The notes under the pieces are model-generated. The model was given only the letters and a program-made list of their open reading frames with translations. It ran no database searches and was not told where the DNA came from. From the NCBI RefSeq assembly GCF_024345535.1, contig NZ_JAGQBH010000004.1, positions 248,001-312,000 on the forward strand: DNA of 64,000 nt, in the 5' to 3' direction. The number at the start of each line of letters is the position of its first letter. The first letter of the stretch is position 1. The stretch is from Cyanobium sp. N.Huapi 1H5. Its GTDB lineage: Bacteria > Cyanobacteriota > Cyanobacteriia > PCC-6307 > Cyanobiaceae. Positions 49,017 to 58,468 of the stretch are shown here, piece after piece. The position numbers and the translations under genes are program-made.

Positions 49017-49098
49017 ACCGTCGCGCCGATAGGCGCGCTTTAGCGCACCGTCGCGCCGGGAGGCGCGCTCACCTGACCGTCGCGCCGCGAGGCGCGCT
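49017..49098. repeat. Three tandem hairpin units between convergent genes
   Basis: ACCGTCGCGCC-(GATA/GGGA/GCGA)-GGCGCGCT occurs at 49017, 49047 and 49076 (spacing 30 and 29). Each copy is a 6-bp CGCGCC/GGCGCG stem with a four-base loop, the loops differing. The array fills the gap between the end of the GltS-like gene and the aldolase gene, reaching the latter's stop codon. It may end transcription from both sides; no T run is present. See finding. Confidence 0.85.
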
Positions 49099-51209
49099 TA
49101 TCTGACCATGGCCGCCACGTTGCCGCCATCGACGGTGAGCACGGCGCCGGTGGTGCGCTCCATGCGGGCCAGGGCCACGAAGGCGTCGGCCACATCGCTG
49201 GCGCGCACCTCGGCCCCCAGCAGGTTGCCCGCCATGTAGAGCTCCTCGCTGAGGCCGCGGGCGGCGGAACGTTCGCGGATCATGGTGTCGTCGAGCAGGC
49301 CGGAGCGGATGCGGTCGGCGTTGATGGCGTTCACCCGCACGGCGGCCTCCCCTTCCTCGAGGGCGTACTGGCGCACCAGGGCCAGCAGGGCCGCCTTGCT
49401 GATGCCGTAGGCGCCGAAGTTGGGGCCGGGGTTGAGGGCCTGCTTGCTGACGTTGAACAGCAGCTGGCCCCCCAGCACCGGGCGGCCGCCGCCCTCGGGG
49501 CGGTCCTGGGAGCGGAACACCGCCAGGGCCGCCTGGGCCACGTGCTGGTGGGCGAAGAAGTTGAGCTCGAAGCTGGCCCGCAGGTCGGCGTCGGCCAGGG
49601 TGGCCATCGGGCCGGTCCAGGCGGCTCCGGCATTGCTCACGACGATGTCGAGCCCGCCGAAGTGGGCCGCCACCGCCGCGACGGCGGCCTGCACCGCCGC
49701 CGGGTCGGTGACGTCGCAGGCCGCGGCGAGAGCCCGCTTGCCGCAGGTGGCCGCCACCGCCTCGGCCGCCTCCCGGTCAAGATCGAGCAAGGCCACCTCG
49801 GCGCCGGCGGCGGCGAAGGCCCGGGCGGTGGCGGCACCGATGGCACCGGCGCCGCCGGTGACCAGCACCACCTGGCGGGCCAGGGGCTTCTCGGCCGCCT
49901 TGCCGAGCTTGGCCTGCTCCAGGCTCCAGTACTCCATGGCGAAGGTGTCGGCCTCGCCCACGGGCGCGAAGCGGCCGATGGCCTCGGCCGCCAGCAGGGT
50001 CTGGGCCCAGGCCTCGGCGATGTCGGCCACGGTGGCCGCCTCGGCCGCCGACTTGCCGATGCCCACCAGCCCCAGGCCCGGGATCGCCGCCACCCGCGGC
50101 AGGGGATCGAGCGCCTTCTTCACGCCCCCGGCGGCGGCGTTCTGGCGCTGGAAGTAGGCGCGGTACTCGGCCGCGTAGGCCTCCAGGGCCTGCTCCAGGG
50201 AGCGGCCCCAGGCGGCCAGGGCCTGGCCGTCGCCGCCGGCCGGCAGCGGCGGCAGCACCAGGGGCTGGGCCTTGGTGCGGATCACGTGGTCGGGGGTGGC
50301 GACGCCGCGGCCGGCCCAGTCGCCCAATCGGGCGTCGTCGCTGATGGCGCGGGCCAGGGGGGTGTCGCGCAGCGCCAGGATCCAGTGGGGACGGACGCCG
50401 GCGGCGACGGCGGCCCGGCCCAGGGCGCCCCGCAGCACCGGCAGCACCGCCGCCGCAGGGGCCGGGCGCTCCGGCACGGCCACGGCATGGAGTGAGCGCT
50501 CGCCCCGGGCCAGGCGCTCCTCGGCCCGCCGCACCAGATCGATCATCCGGTCGTAGCTCTGCTCGGCCGTCGCCCCGAAGGAGAACAGGCCGTGCTGCAG
50601 CAGCACCATGCCCTCCGGTTCGCTGCCGCCGGCCGCTGCCGCCTCGTAGGCCTGGGCCGCCGCCTTGGCCAGGGCAAAACCGGGCATCACGTAGGGCACC
50701 AGGGCCACCCGATCGCCGTAGACCTCGCGGCACACCTCGGCCGCATCGGGCTGGTCGGCCAGGGCCAGCAGGGCGATCGAGTGGGTGTGGTCGACGAAGG
50801 TGTGGGGCAGGAAGGCGTGCAGCAGCGCCTCCACCGAGGGGTTGGGGGCGGCCGGATCGATCAGGTTCTGGCGCTGGGCCGCCACCATCGCCTCATCGCT
50901 GAGGGCGTCGAGGACCCGCAGCGCCTGCAGGGGCTCCAGCCGAACCGCCGGATGGCCCGGCGGCTCGATCGTGCCCAGGTCCCAGCCCGATCCCTTGACG
51001 CACAGCACCCGGATCGGCTCGCCCAGCAGCCCGTGCACGGTGGTCTTCACCGAGGTGTTGCCGCCGCCGTGCAGCACCAGCTCGGGGTCGGCCCCCAGCA
51101 GCCGGGCCGAGTAGGTGCGCAGGGCCAGGTCTTCGTTCACCCCCTGGTCGCCGTACCGGGCGATCGCCTCGCGGGCGGCGGCATCCGACCAGCGATGTTG
51201 CACGGCCAT
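49098..51209 (-). CDS. Bifunctional class II aldolase / short-chain dehydrogenase (RhaD-ADH type)
   Basis: 703 residues from ATG 51209. N-terminal aldolase half (20-400): LVLHGGGNTSVK, VKGSGWDLG, FVDHTHS (zinc His) and a second-half SYDRMIDLVRRAEE. C-terminal SDR half (about 440-700): VTGGAGAIGAATARAF nucleotide motif, NAGAA, and Y-x-x-x-K in AYGISK. This fusion family includes rhamnulose-1-phosphate aldolase/lactaldehyde dehydrogenase. In picocyanobacteria the natural substrate is unproven. Single gene, no partner enzymes adjacent. Confidence 0.9.
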   Translation of the reverse strand: MAVQHRWSDAAAREAIARYGDQGVNEDLALRTYSARLLGADPELVLHGGGNTSVKTTVHGLLGEPIRVLCVKGSGWDLGTIEPPGHPAVRLEPLQALRVLDALSDEAMVAAQRQNLIDPAAPNPSVEALLHAFLPHTFVDHTHSIALLALADQPDAAEVCREVYGDRVALVPYVMPGFALAKAAAQAYEAAAAGGSEPEGMVLLQHGLFSFGATAEQSYDRMIDLVRRAEERLARGERSLHAVAVPERPAPAAAVLPVLRGALGRAAVAAGVRPHWILALRDTPLARAISDDARLGDWAGRGVATPDHVIRTKAQPLVLPPLPAGGDGQALAAWGRSLEQALEAYAAEYRAYFQRQNAAAGGVKKALDPLPRVAAIPGLGLVGIGKSAAEAATVADIAEAWAQTLLAAEAIGRFAPVGEADTFAMEYWSLEQAKLGKAAEKPLARQVVLVTGGAGAIGAATARAFAAAGAEVALLDLDREAAEAVAATCGKRALAAACDVTDPAAVQAAVAAVAAHFGGLDIVVSNAGAAWTGPMATLADADLRASFELNFFAHQHVAQAALAVFRSQDRPEGGGRPVLGGQLLFNVSKQALNPGPNFGAYGISKAALLALVRQYALEEGEAAVRVNAINADRIRSGLLDDTMIRERSAARGLSEELYMAGNLLGAEVRASDVADAFVALARMERTTGAVLTVDGGNVAAMVR

Positions 51210-51267
51210 GGGGCGAAACGGGGACTCTGGGGGGAGACTACGGGGAGCGATCCTCCAGGGGCTGCCC

Positions 51268-51723
51268 GTGTCCATCCGCTGCCTCCGCCCGGTCTTGAAG
51301 CCTTGGGCCTGCCTGGCGTGGCAACCCCTGCTGCTGGCCATTGGTGTGGCGGTGGGCGGCGGGATGGCGGCCCGCGCCATGGCCGAGCAGCCGGTGCCCC
51401 CCCAGATCCCCCGCGACGGCTGGAAGGACTGCGAGTACAACGACAAGCCCCTGGCCTGCGTCGATGAGCAGCTCCCCGGCGGGCTGAAGATCCGCTGGAA
51501 GGATGGCCAGTCGATGACCTACCGGGCGGTGTCCGCCAAGGGCAAGGACGCCAGCGGCAGCGACCTGCTGCGGGACCGGCTGGGGGGGATCTGGCGCCGG
51601 GAGCTCTACGTCCAGGGCAACATCACCCTCACCAACGAGGCCAACGGCAACCGGATCTTCGTGCCGCTGCGCTTCCCCTGCAAACCGCCCCTGAAAGGGG
51701 AGGTGGGCTACTGCCGCTACTGA
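51268..51723 (+). CDS. Exported hypothetical protein
   Basis: 151 residues from GTG 51268. N-terminal hydrophobic stretch (LAWQPLLLAIGVAVGGGMAA, cleavage near AMA|EQP). Mature part: WKDCEYNDKPLACVDEQLPGGLKIRWKDGQSMTY, split as WKDCEYNDKPLACVDEQ, LPGGLKIRWKDGQ; FPCKPPLKGEVGYCRY at the end. Four Cys suggest two disulfides. No known family. Starts 58 bases from the divergent aldolase gene and precedes a dehydrogenase by 11 bases. Confidence 0.65.
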   Translation: MSIRCLRPVLKPWACLAWQPLLLAIGVAVGGGMAARAMAEQPVPPQIPRDGWKDCEYNDKPLACVDEQLPGGLKIRWKDGQSMTYRAVSAKGKDASGSDLLRDRLGGIWRRELYVQGNITLTNEANGNRIFVPLRFPCKPPLKGEVGYCRY

Positions 51724-51734
51724 GCCCGCCCGCC

Positions 51735-52727
51735 ATGAGAGCGATCCTCGCCACCCCGGCCCTGGTGGACACGGAGCTGCCGGAGCCCGTCCTCGGCCCC
51801 CACGACCTGCTGGTGCGGATCGAGGCGGTGGCGGTGAACCCGATCGACACCAAGCTGCGGGCCGCCGTGGGCGAAGGGGATCCCCCCCGGCAGCTGGGCT
51901 GGGACGCCGCCGGGGTGGTGGCGGCGACCGGGGAGGGGGCGGGCCGCTTCCGGGTGGGGGATCCGGTGATGTTCGCCGGCGACGCGGGACGGGCCGGCTG
52001 CAACGCCGAAGCCGTGCTGGTGGACGAGCGGCTGGTGGGCCGCAGACCGGCGCGGCTCTCCTGGGCCGAAGCCGCCTCCGTGCCACTGACGGGCCTGACG
52101 GCCTGGGAGGCCCTGTTCGAGCGGCTCGACCTTGATCCAGCCGGTGGCTCTGGGCGGGGCCGCAGCCTGCTGATCCTCGGCGGCGCCGGCGGGGTGGGCT
52201 CGATCGCCATCCAGCTGGCCCGCCGGGCCGGGGCCGTGGTGATCGCCAGCGCCTCGCGGCCGGAGAGCGCCGCCTGGGTGCGGGAGCTGGGGGCCGACCA
52301 CGTCGTTGACCATCACCAGCCCCTGGCCCCCCAGCTGGCTGCCCTGGGCTTCGCGGCGGTGGACCGGATCGCCAACTTCAGCGACACCGACGCCTACTGG
52401 GAGGTGATGGCCGAGCTCATCGCCCCGCTGGGGTCGATCGTGGCGATCGTGGGCAACCGCCAGCCCCTCGACCTCAACCGGCTCAAGGCCAAGAGCGTGA
52501 CCTTCGCCTGGGAGTTCATGTTCAGCCGCTCCCAGTTCCAGACGCCCGACATGGGGCGGCAGGGGGAAATCCTGGATCACCTTGCCGCGCTGTTGGAGGC
52601 CGGCGAGCTGCGCCCCACCCTTTGCCGCACCCTGAGCCCCATCAACGCCGCCAACCTGGTGGTTGCCCACGCCCAGCTGGCCTCCGGCAGCACGATCGGC
52701 AAGATCGCTCTGGTGGGCTGGGATTGA
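51735..52727 (+). CDS. MDR zinc-binding alcohol dehydrogenase/quinone oxidoreductase family
   Basis: 330 residues. GroES-like N-domain with IEAVAVNPIDTKLR and WDAAGVVAATGEGAGRFRVGD; NADP-binding domain with LILGGAGGVGSIAIQLARRAGAVV. Lacks the structural zinc Cys cluster, and the catalytic Cys/His ligand pattern of true zinc enzymes is absent, so it fits the zinc-less ZinBAD-type or quinone oxidoreductases. Substrate unknown. Confidence 0.85.
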   Translation: MRAILATPALVDTELPEPVLGPHDLLVRIEAVAVNPIDTKLRAAVGEGDPPRQLGWDAAGVVAATGEGAGRFRVGDPVMFAGDAGRAGCNAEAVLVDERLVGRRPARLSWAEAASVPLTGLTAWEALFERLDLDPAGGSGRGRSLLILGGAGGVGSIAIQLARRAGAVVIASASRPESAAWVRELGADHVVDHHQPLAPQLAALGFAAVDRIANFSDTDAYWEVMAELIAPLGSIVAIVGNRQPLDLNRLKAKSVTFAWEFMFSRSQFQTPDMGRQGEILDHLAALLEAGELRPTLCRTLSPINAANLVVAHAQLASGSTIGKIALVGWD

Positions 52728-52923
52728 AGGGTGGGGGAGCCGGGTGGCCGTCGAGGAGCCGAGCCTGGCCCTCAAGGCCACCAGGGAACCCGATCTGGGA
52801 TCGTCCAAAGGAGAGGACCCCGGTTAGCCTTCCAAGGCATAGGTGAGGATTCAGCACGGCTGGCCTTCGGAATCCCTTTTCTTGGGACCACCACTGGTGG
52901 CGCCTATGCACCCCATTCACTCC

Positions 52924-54834
52924 TCAATCAAGACGCGACAGAAAGGTAAAGGCGGGAATTTCATCATTCAAACCAATCAGATCTTCTTTTGAATCAAGCC
53001 TCAGGACTCGCTTCACCTGATTCATCCTCTCGGCAGATTCTTCTTTTCGTCCCCGCTCCTTTCGCCAATACCAGGTGTGCATGAACCTCATGGGCTGAGG
53101 AGAGATCGCCCTGTCCACGATCCATCGCCCGAAGCCTTCTTTCTTGGCCAGTTCTCCGCTGACGAGATCTCCACTGAGGCCGAGTTGCCTGGTAGGCGTA
53201 TGAACATTGCTCCACCGCGTCACGGCAAAGGCAGCAGCGTGGTGGCAGAAGGTGAAGGTGTGATGCTGATCCCCTAGGCGCGTTCTGTAGTCCTGCTCAT
53301 AACTGAATCGCAGCCTTGGATACGGGTGGCGTCTGGCTTCAGGAGTATCCGGACCCTTCACCTCAAGCCAGGGAGGAGAAGTGGGCAGACTCCGGTTGCG
53401 TTTTTGCTGCTGGAACGTCCGGGCATCCCTGGCCAACAGAAACTCTGCATGGGCCAACGGACTTCCAAGGGTGATCAGATCGGTCACCAGCCATGGCTGG
53501 GTGTTGACTCGCATCCCCTTCCAGGCTTCATGCTGGAGCCTTTGGGCCAGCCTTGGCTCTTCTAGCTTCTCAGCAGCCGCTTTCTCCACACGGCGCAGGC
53601 TTTGGAACGGCCCATCACCGTTGGCCCGTGGACGCAAGGTGGGGCTCTGGTGAAGGGCATTCATCCTTGCCCAGGCATGGGTGAGGATGTCATACGCAAT
53701 GACAGACCCAAGGCTATGGCCCAACAGCACAATTCGATCGTAACGCCCGGAATCGTGAAGCTTCTCCACTAGCTCAACACCTTCTGTGCGAATAGCCTGG
53801 CGGTGAGCAATGTTGTCGGGGTGGGGCTGAAGATAGCGCGCGGCATCGCCCAGATAGTTGATAGCCAGCGGGAGTCCCAGTCGTTGCCAGAGAAGCTTCA
53901 CCAGAACAACGAGAAGCGGCAGGGAAACCAGCCACAACACCCATGCGGGCCCATCGGCTTTGACGGCTGTGCCGATCGATAGCAGAAGGACACCCAGGAG
54001 GATGAGCCAGGCAGCCAACCACAGCGGAAGGATCGCTCTGGGCACGTTCCAGGTCCACCTCCGCCTGGGGGGAGAGGTGGGGGGGTTCACAGGGACTCGC
54101 CGCAACGGCCAGCGCATCAGCAGACCGGCAAGCCAGCTGGTGAGCTGATCAAGCGTGGTGTCGCGAATGATATGAGCCCAATAAATTTCAAAGACATCAG
54201 TGGTTGGACGTTGATGATCAGAATTCAGCGTGGCCATGCGAAGCTCAAACGACCGAGAAAGTCGATCTGGCTTGATCCAAGCAGAGGACTTCTTGTTGCC
54301 AAGCACACCACTACCCAGAAAGCTGTAGAGCATCTCTCCAGGCTGCTGCTCTCCGATGCCATGGATCAGCACGACAGCTTGGCGAGGATTCTCACGGCGA
54401 TGGCGCAGCCGTCGATCAAGCCTCTGCAGGAGTTGCTTGCGCCGGTGCCAGTATTGAGAAACAGCCTGCAGGCCACCAGCAGGAATTCGGGTTTCCTTGA
54501 TCCTCAGAAGGCAGCCATGGGGATCGCCCGAATCACAGAGCGACAGGCTGAGGCGAGTCTGGCCTTTCGCAGGCCACCCCGGCAGGCCCTCCACTTGAAA
54601 GAGCACCTCTGCCATGTCCCGGTAGGCCACCAGAACAGCCTGGCGCCAGGGGCCGGATTCATCGCAAAGTGCGACCTGGGCATCCACATGGAGGTGGATT
54701 CTGGAGGCCGGCCCGAGCCACTTGCGCTGGCCTTCCTCTCGCCAAAGAACGTCCCAGGCGTGCGCCCGGGTGAGACCCAGCGGGATGGTCAGGCTGAAAC
54801 TGTTGCGATAGCCATTGGCCGCTTGCCTTCCCAT
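52924..54834 (-). CDS. SRPBCC-like domain fused to a membrane-anchored alpha/beta hydrolase
   Basis: 636 residues. Residues 10-125 read like an AHSA1/SRPBCC helix-grip domain (SLTIPLGLTRAHAWDVLW, GPWRQAVLVAYRDMAEVLFQ). From 150 an alpha/beta hydrolase: AVVLIHGIGEQQPGEMLY, then two membrane helices (about 266-290 and 298-318), NYLGDAARYLQPHP, and the elbow LGHSLGSVIA with probable nucleophile Ser374. A late HHTFTFCHHAA supplies candidate catalytic His. GC content is clearly lower than neighbours (near 56% by eye). No family for the fusion recalled; transfer is possible. Confidence 0.75.
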   Translation of the reverse strand: MGRQAANGYRNSFSLTIPLGLTRAHAWDVLWREEGQRKWLGPASRIHLHVDAQVALCDESGPWRQAVLVAYRDMAEVLFQVEGLPGWPAKGQTRLSLSLCDSGDPHGCLLRIKETRIPAGGLQAVSQYWHRRKQLLQRLDRRLRHRRENPRQAVVLIHGIGEQQPGEMLYSFLGSGVLGNKKSSAWIKPDRLSRSFELRMATLNSDHQRPTTDVFEIYWAHIIRDTTLDQLTSWLAGLLMRWPLRRVPVNPPTSPPRRRWTWNVPRAILPLWLAAWLILLGVLLLSIGTAVKADGPAWVLWLVSLPLLVVLVKLLWQRLGLPLAINYLGDAARYLQPHPDNIAHRQAIRTEGVELVEKLHDSGRYDRIVLLGHSLGSVIAYDILTHAWARMNALHQSPTLRPRANGDGPFQSLRRVEKAAAEKLEEPRLAQRLQHEAWKGMRVNTQPWLVTDLITLGSPLAHAEFLLARDARTFQQQKRNRSLPTSPPWLEVKGPDTPEARRHPYPRLRFSYEQDYRTRLGDQHHTFTFCHHAAAFAVTRWSNVHTPTRQLGLSGDLVSGELAKKEGFGRWIVDRAISPQPMRFMHTWYWRKERGRKEESAERMNQVKRVLRLDSKEDLIGLNDEIPAFTFLSRLD

Positions 54835-54976
54835 GGCTATAGGCGCTTGTTGAGGCGTAAGGATCAGCCGATCAGAGCCTATTCAACGATCGTTGGAAAA
54901 GCCATGGGATTGGCCTAAGAATCATGATGCTGCCTGTTGTCCAGGCCCCATCGCAGGACCAACGGGGGGCCGGCCC

Positions 54977-55954
54977 TCAGCGCACGGCCACCAGCACCCG
55001 GTGGCGGGGGTCGCAGGCCTGCCGGCGCACGTCGCGGAAGCCGGCCTGCTCCAGGGCCCGGGGCAGATCGAGGCTGAAGTAGTCCGCCAGGTAGGGCTCG
55101 GTGCTCTTGAGCAGGGTGGCGATCGGCGCCGGCAGGCGGCGAATCACGGCCGAATCGGGGTCCTGATCCACCAGGGCCACCACCCCGCCGGGGCGCAGCA
55201 GCCGTGCCGCCTCCCGCAGCACCGCCCGGGTGGCCTCCATGGGCAGCTCGTGGCACACGAACTGGAGGGTGATCAGATCCACGCTGGCCGCCGGCAGGCC
55301 GGTGGCTTCGGCGGCGGCGTGGTGCCAGCGGCGGATGCGGCCGCCGGGATCGCGGACCCTGGCCACCGCCAGCATCTGGGGGGAGAGGTCGAGGCCGTCG
55401 ACGGCAACGCCTGTGCCCTCACGCCGCTCCAGCCAGTCCTTGAGGGCCAGGGTGCCGACGCCCACCGAGCAGCCGATGTCGAGGGCGCTGCGCACCGGGC
55501 CGGTGAGGCTGGGCTCGATCGCGGCGAAGATCGCGTCCCGCAGCCGCCGCTGGGCGTCCTGGGGCTCCAGGGTTTCCCCCGGCCACACCCGCAGGGCCAT
55601 GGCATCGGTGGCCTGCTCCGCCTCGCCGGCCGCCGCCCAGCAGAGGTTGCCCTCCTGGTAGGCATGGAACCGGGCCCGGTAGTAGGCCGGCACCTGGGTG
55701 GCCGCATCCGTGCTGCTGGCCAGCAGCGGCTCGGCCTGCCGCACCAGCTCTTCGCGCCGGGCCCGCCAGGCGATGCCGCGACGCTCGGCGGTGCGGATGA
55801 TCAGCTGGCGGGCCTGCAGGAACAGCAGCCGCCGCAGGGGCTCGACCGCCAGCAGCCGGTCGATCAGCCAGCCGAGGGGATGGCGCGAGGCCACCCAGTT
55901 GGGGGGCGGGGCGGCGGCGGTCAGGGCCGGAGCGGCGGGCTGGGCCTGGGCCAT
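54977..55954 (-). CDS. SAM-dependent methyltransferase
   Basis: 325 residues. N-terminal helical extension (30-150, QVPAYYRARFHAYQEGNLCWAAA). Class I methyltransferase core: ALDIGCSVGVGTLALKDWL, VDGLDLSPQML, RIRRWHHAAAEATGLPAASVDLITLQFVCHELP, LLRPGGVVALVDQD. Relatives include methyltransferases of unknown substrate. Last gene of the minus-strand set behind the YeeE transporter, 20 bases downstream of its stop. Confidence 0.85.
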   Translation of the reverse strand: MAQAQPAAPALTAAAPPPNWVASRHPLGWLIDRLLAVEPLRRLLFLQARQLIIRTAERRGIAWRARREELVRQAEPLLASSTDAATQVPAYYRARFHAYQEGNLCWAAAGEAEQATDAMALRVWPGETLEPQDAQRRLRDAIFAAIEPSLTGPVRSALDIGCSVGVGTLALKDWLERREGTGVAVDGLDLSPQMLAVARVRDPGGRIRRWHHAAAEATGLPAASVDLITLQFVCHELPMEATRAVLREAARLLRPGGVVALVDQDPDSAVIRRLPAPIATLLKSTEPYLADYFSLDLPRALEQAGFRDVRRQACDPRHRVLVAVR

Positions 55955-55975: not shown

Positions 55976-57109
55976 TCAGTCTGACGGGGCTGCGGGGCCC
56001 GGCGCCGGGCGCAGCCGCAGCGAGGCGGCGAAGCCCAGCAGGGCCACCGCCAGCCAGATCCAGCCGTGCAGGCTGAAGCTCATCACCCCGCCCAGGAAGG
56101 CATTGACGTTGCACCCCGAGGCCAGCACCCCGCCGTAGCCCATCAGCAGGCCGCCGAAGCCACGCCGGACCAGGTCCGGAAGGGGCTCGGACCGCTCACC
56201 GCGCCAGCGGAAGCGGCCCTCGGCGAAGGCGGTGGCGACGGCGCCGTAGAGCAGGCCCAGATCGACGAGCACGGACTCGTTGAACAGCCAGGCGTCCGGC
56301 CCCGCCAGCAGGGCCTGGCCCCGGGGACTCCCCCAGAACAGGCTGCTGCCGGGATCCCAGCCCAGGGCCTGGGCGGCGTGGGCGCCACTGAGGGCCAGGC
56401 CCCAGAGCACCTTCCAGGGCTCGGCCGTCACCAGCAGCAGGCCCGTGGCCAGCAGGGCGACGGCGATGGCGCCGCCGTAAAGCCGGCGGATGGGGGAGCA
56501 CCAGGGGTGCTGGCCGCTCCAGCGCGTCAGCAGCACAACGATCAGGGCGATGAAGGCGAGCTGCAGGATCAGGGCGCCCAGCAGACCGAACAGCTCCAGG
56601 CCGACCGGGGAGGGCAGGCGCGGCAGGGGCAGGGCCGCCAGCTGCGGGGCGTGCAGGGTGCCGAGGAATGCGCCGACGACCAGGCCGATCAGGGCGGCGA
56701 GCACGCCGCCGCCGCCGCGGGAGGTGGCCGCCAGGGTGCCGCAGCCGCAGGCCCGGGCCCGCTCCATGCCGATGCCGAACAGGAAGGCCCCGGCCAGGAA
56801 GGGCAGGGAGAGGGGGGTGGCCAGCAGCTTCGGCTGCAGGCCCGTGAGGGGCTCGGCGGTGAGCACCAGGGCCATGGCGATCGCCAGCAGAGCCGCCAGC
56901 AGCAGCTGGGCGAAGACCGGGTGGGGATCCCGCCGCTCGATCAGCCGGCGATAGCCGGAGGCGAAACCGAAACCGGAGCGGACCAGGACGTGGCCGAGGC
57001 CGCAGCCCAGACCCCAGACCAGGGCCGAGGTGGGCTGCCGGGCCGCCAGGGCGGCGGCCACCGCCACGGCGAGGGCCACGGCGAGTGCGGCTGATGGAAA
57101 GCGCCTCAA
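55976..57109 (-). CDS. YeeE/YedE (TsuA-like) sulfur-compound transporter
   Basis: 377 residues, TTG start overlapping the stop of the small upstream gene. About ten membrane spans. Conserved Cys motifs: GMERARACGCGTLAA, and VLASGCNVNAFLGGVMS. In thiosulfate transporter TsuA/YeeE these Cys relay thiosulfate. It follows a rhodanese gene and a small Cys-containing protein, supporting sulfur uptake. The central stretch is longer than in E. coli YeeE. Confidence 0.9.
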   Translation of the reverse strand: MRRFPSAALAVALAVAVAAALAARQPTSALVWGLGCGLGHVLVRSGFGFASGYRRLIERRDPHPVFAQLLLAALLAIAMALVLTAEPLTGLQPKLLATPLSLPFLAGAFLFGIGMERARACGCGTLAATSRGGGGVLAALIGLVVGAFLGTLHAPQLAALPLPRLPSPVGLELFGLLGALILQLAFIALIVVLLTRWSGQHPWCSPIRRLYGGAIAVALLATGLLLVTAEPWKVLWGLALSGAHAAQALGWDPGSSLFWGSPRGQALLAGPDAWLFNESVLVDLGLLYGAVATAFAEGRFRWRGERSEPLPDLVRRGFGGLLMGYGGVLASGCNVNAFLGGVMSFSLHGWIWLAVALLGFAASLRLRPAPGPAAPSD

Positions 57110-57249
57110 CGCTTCTTGGCTTTGGCTTGGGATGGGGACTCGCTGCCGGTGTCACAGGCGAGGGCTGCGGCCGGCGGGAGCAGCAGCACCAGCAGCACGC
57201 CGGCCAGGGGGAAGAGCCGGGCGGCCTGGCGAAGGAGGGGCATGGACAT
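57106..57249 (-). CDS. 47-aa exported protein with one Cys
   Basis: MSMPLLRQAARLFPLAGVLL then VLLLPPAAALACDTGSESPS and QAKAKKR. A secretory signal ends at ALA|CDTG (ALAC is not a standard lipobox). The mature peptide would be about 16 residues with an N-terminal Cys. Stop overlaps the YeeE start by four bases and the gene follows the rhodanese by 29 bases, so it is part of the operon. Too short for similarity detection; its conservation elsewhere would tell whether it is real. Confidence 0.6.
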   Translation of the reverse strand: MSMPLLRQAARLFPLAGVLLVLLLPPAAALACDTGSESPSQAKAKKR

Positions 57250-57278
57250 GAAGAAACGGGGTGGAGCTGGAGGGGGGA

Positions 57279-58343
57279 TCAGCGGCTGCTCACCAGGGCC
57301 GGGCTGCCTTCCGGCCCAACGGCGATCGGCAAATTGGAGGCACTGTATTCGGTCCAGGAGCCCTCATAGATCCGCACGTTGGGGTACTTGAGGAGGTGCC
57401 GGAGGGTGAGGAACTGGAGGCTGGCCTCCCGGCCGGTGCTGCAGGAAATGATGATCTCCTTGTCGGGGGTGATGCCGCGGCTGACAAGCAGGGCCCGGAT
57501 CTCTTCGAGGGACTTCAGCTTGTGGGCGTTCCTCTTGGCTTCATCGGTGTTGTTCGCTTCGGTGAACGCCTGCCAGGGGATGTTCCTGGCCCCGGGGATG
57601 TGGCCGTTGCGGATGAAGGTCTGGTCGGTGCCCTCGAACTGGGCCTTGGGACGCGGGTCGATGATCACCACGTCCTTGCGGCCGATCCGGGGCTCCAGCT
57701 CCTTGAGGGTGATGGCCAGTCCCTTGACCGTGGTGGGCCGGAAGCTGCCGGCCTGGAAGGTGGGGAACGCCTTGGTGGTGCTCTGGCCGGCCGCCTTGTA
57801 GCCGCTGAGGCCCCCATCGACGATCGCGACCTGGCGCGCGCCGCTCTTCTCGAGGATGTAGGAGACGAGGGCGGTGCCGAGCACGTCGTTGCCGTCGGAA
57901 TAGACGAGCACCGAATCCCGGTTGGAGATGCCCGCCTCGCTCAGGAGGCTGGCGAGCTTGGTGGGACCCCAGATCTGGAAGGGCAGGCGGCCGTTCGGAC
58001 CACGGAAGGCCTGCTCGGAGAGGTGCACGGCGCCGGGCACGTGGCCACCGATGTAGGAGAGCGGCGGCACCGGGCGCACATCCAGCACCTTCCAGCGGCC
58101 CGAGCGGGCGGCGTCGGCCGCCTGCTCGGGGGAGAACACCTGGAAGCTCGTGCCCCCCGCGGCCAGGGTCGCGACACCGGCGCTGGCCTGGGCGGGAGCG
58201 GCGGCCTGGGCCTGGGTGGCGGGGGAGCTGCCGATGCCCAGCGTGGTGGCGGTGGTGATGGCGGCGGCGGCACCGAGCGCGGCGGACACCAGCAGACGCC
58301 GGGAGAAGCGGAGCCTGGAGTGGCGGACCCTGAAGAACAACAT
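57279..58343 (-). CDS. Exported two-domain rhodanese-family sulfurtransferase
   Basis: 354 residues from ATG 58343. N-terminal twin-Arg-like segment RLRFSRRLLVSAALG followed by an Ala-rich stretch suggests export, perhaps by Tat. Two rhodanese domains: the first (about 65-195) has an inactive site (VLVYSDGND, no Cys), the second has the active IIISCSTGREAS with Cys301. Transfers sulfane sulfur from thiosulfate or 3-mercaptopyruvate. Head of the set with the small Cys protein and YeeE. A 20-bp palindrome lies 22 bases upstream of the start. Confidence 0.93.
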   Translation of the reverse strand: MLFFRVRHSRLRFSRRLLVSAALGAAAAITTATTLGIGSSPATQAQAAAPAQASAGVATLAAGGTSFQVFSPEQAADAARSGRWKVLDVRPVPPLSYIGGHVPGAVHLSEQAFRGPNGRLPFQIWGPTKLASLLSEAGISNRDSVLVYSDGNDVLGTALVSYILEKSGARQVAIVDGGLSGYKAAGQSTTKAFPTFQAGSFRPTTVKGLAITLKELEPRIGRKDVVIIDPRPKAQFEGTDQTFIRNGHIPGARNIPWQAFTEANNTDEAKRNAHKLKSLEEIRALLVSRGITPDKEIIISCSTGREASLQFLTLRHLLKYPNVRIYEGSWTEYSASNLPIAVGPEGSPALVSSR

Positions 58344-58365
58344 TGAACACAAAAGTGATCGATGA

Positions 58366-58385
58366 ACCGATCTTAGAAGATCGGT
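58366..58385. promoter_or_regulatory. 20-bp palindrome in a divergent promoter region
   Basis: ACCGATCTT and AAGATCGGT are exact inverted repeats around a 2-base AG centre. The element lies between the divergent rhodanese (22 bases away) and exported-protein gene (83 bases away). Its form suits a dimeric repressor such as an ArsR-type sulfide/persulfide sensor, an inference. Confidence 0.6.
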
Positions 58386-58468
58386 GGGCGCTTCTGGTTG
58401 TGGGCTTAGCAACAGTGGGGCGCTCCAGGTATTCCGGGTTACCTTTCCTTCCATTCCGCGACCGAACC

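Follow-up and report, generated by a model that had tools for sequence, protein, structure and literature searches.

The question raised by this locus of Cyanobium sp. N.Huapi 1H5 is what a single gene of foreign composition is doing between two ordinary chromosomal genes, and what the unusual protein that it encodes is used for by the cell. Herein, the whole stretch of 64,000 nucleotides that was analysed is called the window, and the features discussed below are collected in Table 1. As the best explanation, we regard the gene as encoding a mobile, membrane-anchored lipid esterase, possibly an effector in phage conflicts, and we give this reading as a whole a probability of about 0.45. The locus merits a moderate interest, since through it an unnamed hydrolase family comes into view whose members tend to adjoin defence genes.

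Table 1. Positions in the window of the island, of its gene with the predicted parts of the product, and of the two flanking genes.
Feature	Position	Strand	Basis
Island inserted between two convergent genes	52728..54976		GC 0.590; missing at the same junction in 19/29 relatives' loci
START-like domain fused to membrane alpha/beta hydrolase, 636 aa	52924..54834	-	Open frame; homologue of the same build in the UW140 MAG
START/SRPBCC-like domain, residues ~10-148	54391..54807	-	Model pLDDT 54; VIA-align Z 13.7 to 3q63_D; 27 Foldseek matches
Alpha/beta-hydrolase region, residues ~151-600	53035..54384	-	Motifs; 12-member alignment; weak Pfam Hydrolase_4, E 0.0007, below cut-off
HG motif HGIGE, residues 158-162, likely oxyanion-hole strand end	54349..54363	-	H158, G159, G161 identical in 11/12
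Two hydrophobic helices within the hydrolase fold, residues ~266-285 and 296-316	53887..54039	-	Hydropathy; other members by eye
Predicted nucleophile Ser374 in GHSLGS	53713..53715	-	Identical in 12/12 members
Predicted catalytic Asp556	53167..53169	-	Identical in 12/12; role inferred from motif and order
Predicted catalytic His586	53077..53079	-	Identical in 12/12; role inferred from motif and order
Left flanking gene, zinc-type alcohol dehydrogenase, outside the island	51735..52727	+	Pfam; in 37/42 genus genomes, own included
Right flanking gene, methyltransferase, outside the island	54977..55954	-	Pfam; adjoins the dehydrogenase in 19/29 relatives' loci

In fact, the composition of the island is far outside that of the rest of the window. 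The 2.25-kb island has 59.0% GC against about 72% for the window, and among 1146 windows of the same size, taken in steps of 50 bases so that they overlap one another and with none overlapping the island, the lowest GC is 0.659, with a mean of 0.723 and a standard deviation of 0.025. The gene itself, which has an ATG start and 636 codons in an intact frame, has a GC3 of 0.637, while nine neighbours that were measured range over 0.859-0.968, and the parts of the island on either side of it are also low in GC (0.638 for 52728-52923 and 0.577 for 54835-54976). A preliminary description of this DNA had reported a low-GC gene with low-GC flanks and a deviating codon use; its coordinates are right and both observations stand, to which we add the minus strand, a detail that it did not contain. 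The gene is present in one copy in its own 3.14 Mb genome. The right edge of the island is approximate, somewhere near 54966-54976, and in 52600-55100 only short repeats were seen, with no target-site repeat, terminal inverted repeat or mobile-element end recognised.

The two flanking genes, on the plus strand at the left and on the minus strand at the right, are convergent, and at the empty sites of the relatives they lie tail to tail without the island. The gap between them at these 19 sites, as measured between the alignment ends of both proteins rather than mapped stop codons, is at most 110 bases in 18 (one of them with a 10-base overlap) and 437 bases in one. This sample derives from 41 relatives, in 36 of which the left flanking gene passed the threshold, leading to the 29 loci compared; the other 10 loci are uninformative, their right flank being outside the compared DNA (102 bases in one and about 1500 in nine, less than the island length) or at a contig end, and for the genomes of these 10 the absence of the gene rests on the genus-wide search and not on site comparison. 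At the closest empty site, L012, the DNA is 95.5% identical on the left and 95.7% on the right, with about 12 bases between the flanking genes. Moreover, a homologue occurs in 1 of the 41 other genomes of the genus (G039), at a different genomic place and with an in-frame stop, where it should be considered that several of the 41 are incomplete assemblies and that the UW140 assembly is 73% complete; in a draw of 300 family genomes, only the window's own gene was found. The gene is an insertion, and its acquisition by transfer is well supported, because the site is empty in relatives, the gene is nearly absent from the genus, its composition is foreign, and its protein relatives are found on plasmids and a phage contig. 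Transfer had been proposed beforehand from composition and flanks, together with the advice to look for an empty site in close relatives, and the joined flanks described above bear it out; the case that had been set against it, in which every relative would ordinarily carry the gene at the same low GC, is ruled out by the genus genomes, the 300-genome draw and the empty sites.

Two other places in the window deserve a brief mention. At 55976-58454, a gene of a sulphur-transport family (PF04143) adjoins a two-domain rhodanese (PF00581), and this pair probably serves thiosulphate uptake and use. At 49098-51446, one frame encodes a class II aldolase joined to a short-chain dehydrogenase, and resembles the known bifunctional sugar-phosphate aldolase/dehydrogenases.

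The front part of the protein had been described as an AHSA1/SRPBCC-like domain. By sequence, residues 1-149 of either homologue match no Pfam family, AHSA1 included, at E <= 10, and the matches to solved structures are at chance level. The structural model, computed from an alignment of 2 sequences (the window gene and its sole homologue, 44% identical) and having a mean pLDDT of 54, is of low confidence, yet it shows the strand-helix order expected of START/SRPBCC proteins. With this model, Foldseek gave 27 matches at E <= 0.001, whose informative titles are START-type with many abscisic-acid receptors, and VIA-align gave a Z of 13.7 to 3q63_D, with an rmsd of 2.6 over 130 residues, followed by the AHSA1 entries 3eli (Z 11.2) and 2lgh (Z 11.1). 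On this modelling, a START-like helix-grip fold is accepted with caution for residues 1-149, so that the earlier assignment can be kept at the level of the START/SRPBCC superfamily, to which the low-confidence model would belong, whereas the AHSA1 subfamily is not supported. The front is rare and found in two genomes. It had no match on plasmids at E <= 1, and a search of 292 genomes of the phylum gave the own gene and one further match, which extends over 55 profile positions, contains two stops and, at E 0.009, is taken as chance.

The other genome with this front is a metagenome assembly of Synechococcus sp. UW140 (CAMDWF010000002.1, L005), whose homologue is taken, with its single in-frame TGA, to be that of G039 above; it has the same two-part build, is 55-56% identical and lies at another genomic locus, with one frame running through the START-hydrolase junction. 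An artificial fusion made by a frameshift, which the preliminary description had named as a way in which it might be wrong, is ruled out by this second gene. Its GC is 0.49 against 0.63 in its flanks. An in-frame TGA lies roughly level with residue 505 and ahead of the predicted catalytic Asp and His (region L005:11497-11545), with the reading frame conserved beyond it; the copy may be a pseudogene or the TGA a sequencing error.

As for the hydrolase region, the motifs HGIGEQ (residues 158-163) and GHSLGS (residues 372-377) are where an alpha/beta hydrolase had been suspected, and they were examined in 12 aligned members, taken from cyanobacteria, rhizobia, one roseobacter and one phage contig, with the stop of the UW140 copy read as X and its Asp and His lying beyond the TGA. 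A GxSxG-like nucleophile elbow is present with its Ser, the Asp and then the His follow after it in the order of the superfamily, and all three residues are invariant, as is G457-S458-P459-L460 in 12/12 members. The predicted triad is most likely Ser374-Asp556-His586, because D556 aligns with the DPISG and H586 with the HxxYW of the relatives; the full-length structure model, with a pLDDT of 38, is too low for triad geometry. The member lacking the HG part is the roseobacter entry, owing to its annotated start. In Roseobacter litoralis (L008:10001-10040), the protein match begins upstream of the annotated CDS start, and the annotated start of WP_222869634.1 is probably too short.

Moreover, the two membrane helices that had been placed inside the hydrolase fold are indeed found there by hydropathy, between the HG motif and the nucleophile elbow. 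Judged from the aligned sequences, this putative membrane insert is a trait of a wider, unnamed hydrolase family, because the other members have, by eye, a hydrophobic stretch at the same place. With two crossings, the hydrolase parts before and after them would lie on one and the same membrane side. The enzyme class is likely that of a lipase-like serine hydrolase, as suggested by these residues and by the weak Pfam matches of the family, which are lipase-like models throughout (Hydrolase_4, LCAT, Lipase_3, PGAP1 and DUF676) and all below the curated cut-offs; the best solved-structure match of the family profile is a diacylglycerol lipase at E 0.088, in the nucleophile region only. The full protein matches no solved structure by sequence at E <= 1, NCBIfam offers nothing usable for the hydrolase, no PADLOC-DB 2.0.0 model matches the window protein or the S. 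meliloti hydrolase at E <= 0.01, and four members have no match in PHROGs. In the open-licence PMC literature, titles and abstract starts yielded no paper on the START-hydrolase fusion or on the hydrolase family. The view that the whole arrangement belongs to no established family thus holds in part: it stands for the START-like front, with its two genomes, but the hydrolase with the membrane segment belongs to a wider unnamed family of rhizobia, roseobacters and other cyanobacteria.

On plasmids, the hydrolase was found in 11 of 72,556 records, all alphaproteobacterial and 6 of them typed conjugative; these stand for seven distinct loci, since three S. meliloti and three Phaeobacter records are near copies, and five of the 11 hold only a partial hydrolase (the three Phaeobacter, Rhizobium CB3171 and Pararhizobium A13). 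A phage origin was set aside: among 50,697 phage records there is no match at E <= 0.01. One member (L047) is carried by an IMG/VR contig, between virion genes and a LuxI/LuxR pair, and none besides it came up in three more scans of viral contigs. Within about 4 kb of that hydrolase, L047:10982-13354 encodes a PhyH dioxygenase along with an autoinducer synthase (PF00765) and its LuxR-type autoinducer receptor (PF03472 and PF00196). Virion, tail and DNA-ejection genes are carried by the contig as well, and the arrangement would represent either phage-borne quorum sensing or the border of a prophage. In the phylum, 6 of 386 genomes have the hydrolase, namely L042-L046 and the own gene. The distant cyanobacterial L043-L046 are chromosomal and share one gene order in 4/4 genomes, with a neighbour that we take to be an alpha-amylase by our own reading. 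In L042 (1099-3800), the relative directly adjoins genes that are haem peroxidase/oxygenase-like by our own reading, a neighbourhood hinting at lipid release followed by oxidation.

The setting of the other relatives is rich in defence genes. PtuA, the Septu ATPase, occurs in 25 of 72,556 plasmid records at E <= 1e-40 with the S. meliloti query, and it is close to the hydrolase in 8 of the 11 hydrolase records, three of them judged by match coordinates only, or in 4 of 7 by distinct loci. In these four loci, PtuA and PtuB as identified by PADLOC are neighbours of the hydrolase, separated from it by 0-2 annotated genes; in the remaining three the PtuA search gave no match, two of them being annotated without any Septu listed and the third having no annotation, with the fragments of CB3171 and A13 outside the PADLOC scan. 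No fixed operon is shown, because hydrolase and Septu are not oriented alike at all loci. Besides Septu, the Phaeobacter hydrolase fragment is adjoined by CBASS genes, and the UW140 homologue ends 5.7 kb from the BREX genes BrxHI, BrxD and PglZ, the last being cut by the end of the compared stretch. Beside the window copy no defence gene was recognised, and its own genome has no convincing PtuA, the best being a weak match of 25% over 115 residues at E 9e-4. Two further observations were made at these loci. The long PtuA proteins of L006, L007, L009 and L010 match not only PtuA models but, at the front, also PtuB (HNH) models, and would represent a variety of Septu whose PtuA begins with an HNH-like part. 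In R. etli (L007:11858-12955), a trypsin-like peptidase gene with a weak PADLOC RT-Protease match lies between hydrolase and Septu, by which a protease-activated hydrolase is conceivable.

From these results a possible mechanism can be drawn. The gene would be mobile cargo, a single gene inserted between two convergent chromosomal genes, and its product most likely a serine esterase or phospholipase. A hairpin of two helices, set into the alpha/beta-hydrolase fold, would hold it at a membrane and place the Ser374-Asp556-His586 active site at the lipid surface. The START-like front, of a fold with a hydrophobic pocket, probably has a lipid or some other hydrophobic molecule as its ligand, which may feed or switch the hydrolase; when triggered, the enzyme would attack the cell's own membrane lipids in conflicts with phages or plasmids. 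The lipid substrate, the sidedness and the control by a ligand are what we infer in this scheme. Against it we count the pLDDT of 38 for the full model, the missing PADLOC match, the window copy without a defence neighbour and with only a weak PtuA-like match in its genome, the changing orientation to Septu, the 3 of 7 plasmid loci without PtuA, and the single, housekeeping-like gene order of the four distant cyanobacterial genomes. A defence role of the gene and its family, taken on its own, is tentative and to our mind has the odds somewhat against it, as defence use rests on the company kept by the relatives. The most specific form is unlikely, namely that the membrane-embedded lipases are a family of anti-phage or anti-plasmid effectors, often partnering an HNH-fronted Septu, and that the START-bearing cyanobacterial version senses a hydrophobic infection cue and cuts membrane lipids.

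The gene might instead be an ordinary enzyme of lipid metabolism, a membrane esterase by which lipids of the membrane or of storage, or foreign esters, are remodelled, acquired for metabolic use and handed its substrate by the START-like domain, in which case the defence neighbours of the relatives would reflect no more than the mixed gene content of plasmid cargo regions. The copy in the window without such a neighbour fits this, and so do the shared gene order and amylase-like neighbour of L043-L046, which look vertical and physiological, and the peroxidase-like gene, by our reading, next to L042; however, the close relatives are on a plasmid, on a phage contig or beside BREX, PtuA is near 8 of 11 hydrolase records though it occurs in so few plasmids at all, and the distribution in the genus, 1/41, is very patchy. 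We hold this metabolic explanation to be possible, yet rather doubtful. It is improbable that the gene is passing cargo without present function, kept by chance and heading for decay: the TGA in the UW140 copy, the partial hydrolases on plasmids and the lack of a sigma-70-like promoter in the island (weak evidence, as the scan gave 0 where chance alone would give 0.3) would agree with decay, but the 636 codons are intact, and all predicted triad and motif residues are kept despite a difference of about 44% from the nearest known relative.

Returning to the membrane-anchored lipid esterase as the preferred reading, lipid-cutting effectors, such as the phospholipases of CBASS, are known as the last step of several bacterial immune pathways. 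The present hydrolase family, which has a membrane hairpin in its catalytic fold, no above-cut-off match in four family libraries and a strong tendency to adjoin Septu on plasmids, is a testable candidate for another lipid-cutting immune effector, and the START-like fusion would naturally couple lipid binding to lipid cutting in one polypeptide. As to the enzyme, its HG, GHSLGS and GSP motifs resemble, as we presume, those of DDHD phospholipases.

Among known proteins, the intracellular lipase-like serine hydrolases (LCAT, PGAP1, DUF676 and Lipase_3) are like the window protein in the nucleophile-elbow region but match it only below the Pfam cut-offs. The START/SRPBCC superfamily (3q63, which is M. 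loti MLL2253, and the AHSA1-type 3eli and 2lgh) would share the fold of residues 1-149 by the low-confidence model, unlike which the window front has no Pfam sequence match and is fused to a hydrolase. According to passages of Kaur et al. 2020 (PMC7159879), alpha/beta hydrolases are partners of caspase-type conflict systems; the likeness would lie in the kind of enzyme acting in bacterial conflict, and the window gene has no recognised caspase-like neighbour. The nucleases in passages of PMC12799240 were also considered and set aside, being of the metallo-beta-lactamase type and not of the window hydrolase family. The distant cyanobacterial hydrolases of 410-450 aa (L042-L046) have no START-like front and are chromosomal with a gene order common to 4/5, but share the HGIGEQ-like start, GHSLGS, GSPL, DPISG, HxxYW and the hydrophobic stretch in the fold. 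The UW140 homologue differs in its site, its BREX surroundings and its TGA, whereas it agrees in the two-part build and in having GC below its surroundings. Finally, the plasmid hydrolases of rhizobia and roseobacters, annotated as 'hypothetical protein' (WQP09411.1, WP_012760220.1, WP_041679174.1 and WP_222869634.1), are without the START-like front, but in the hydrolase region they are 33-40% identical to the window protein, with the same predicted triad and membrane insert.
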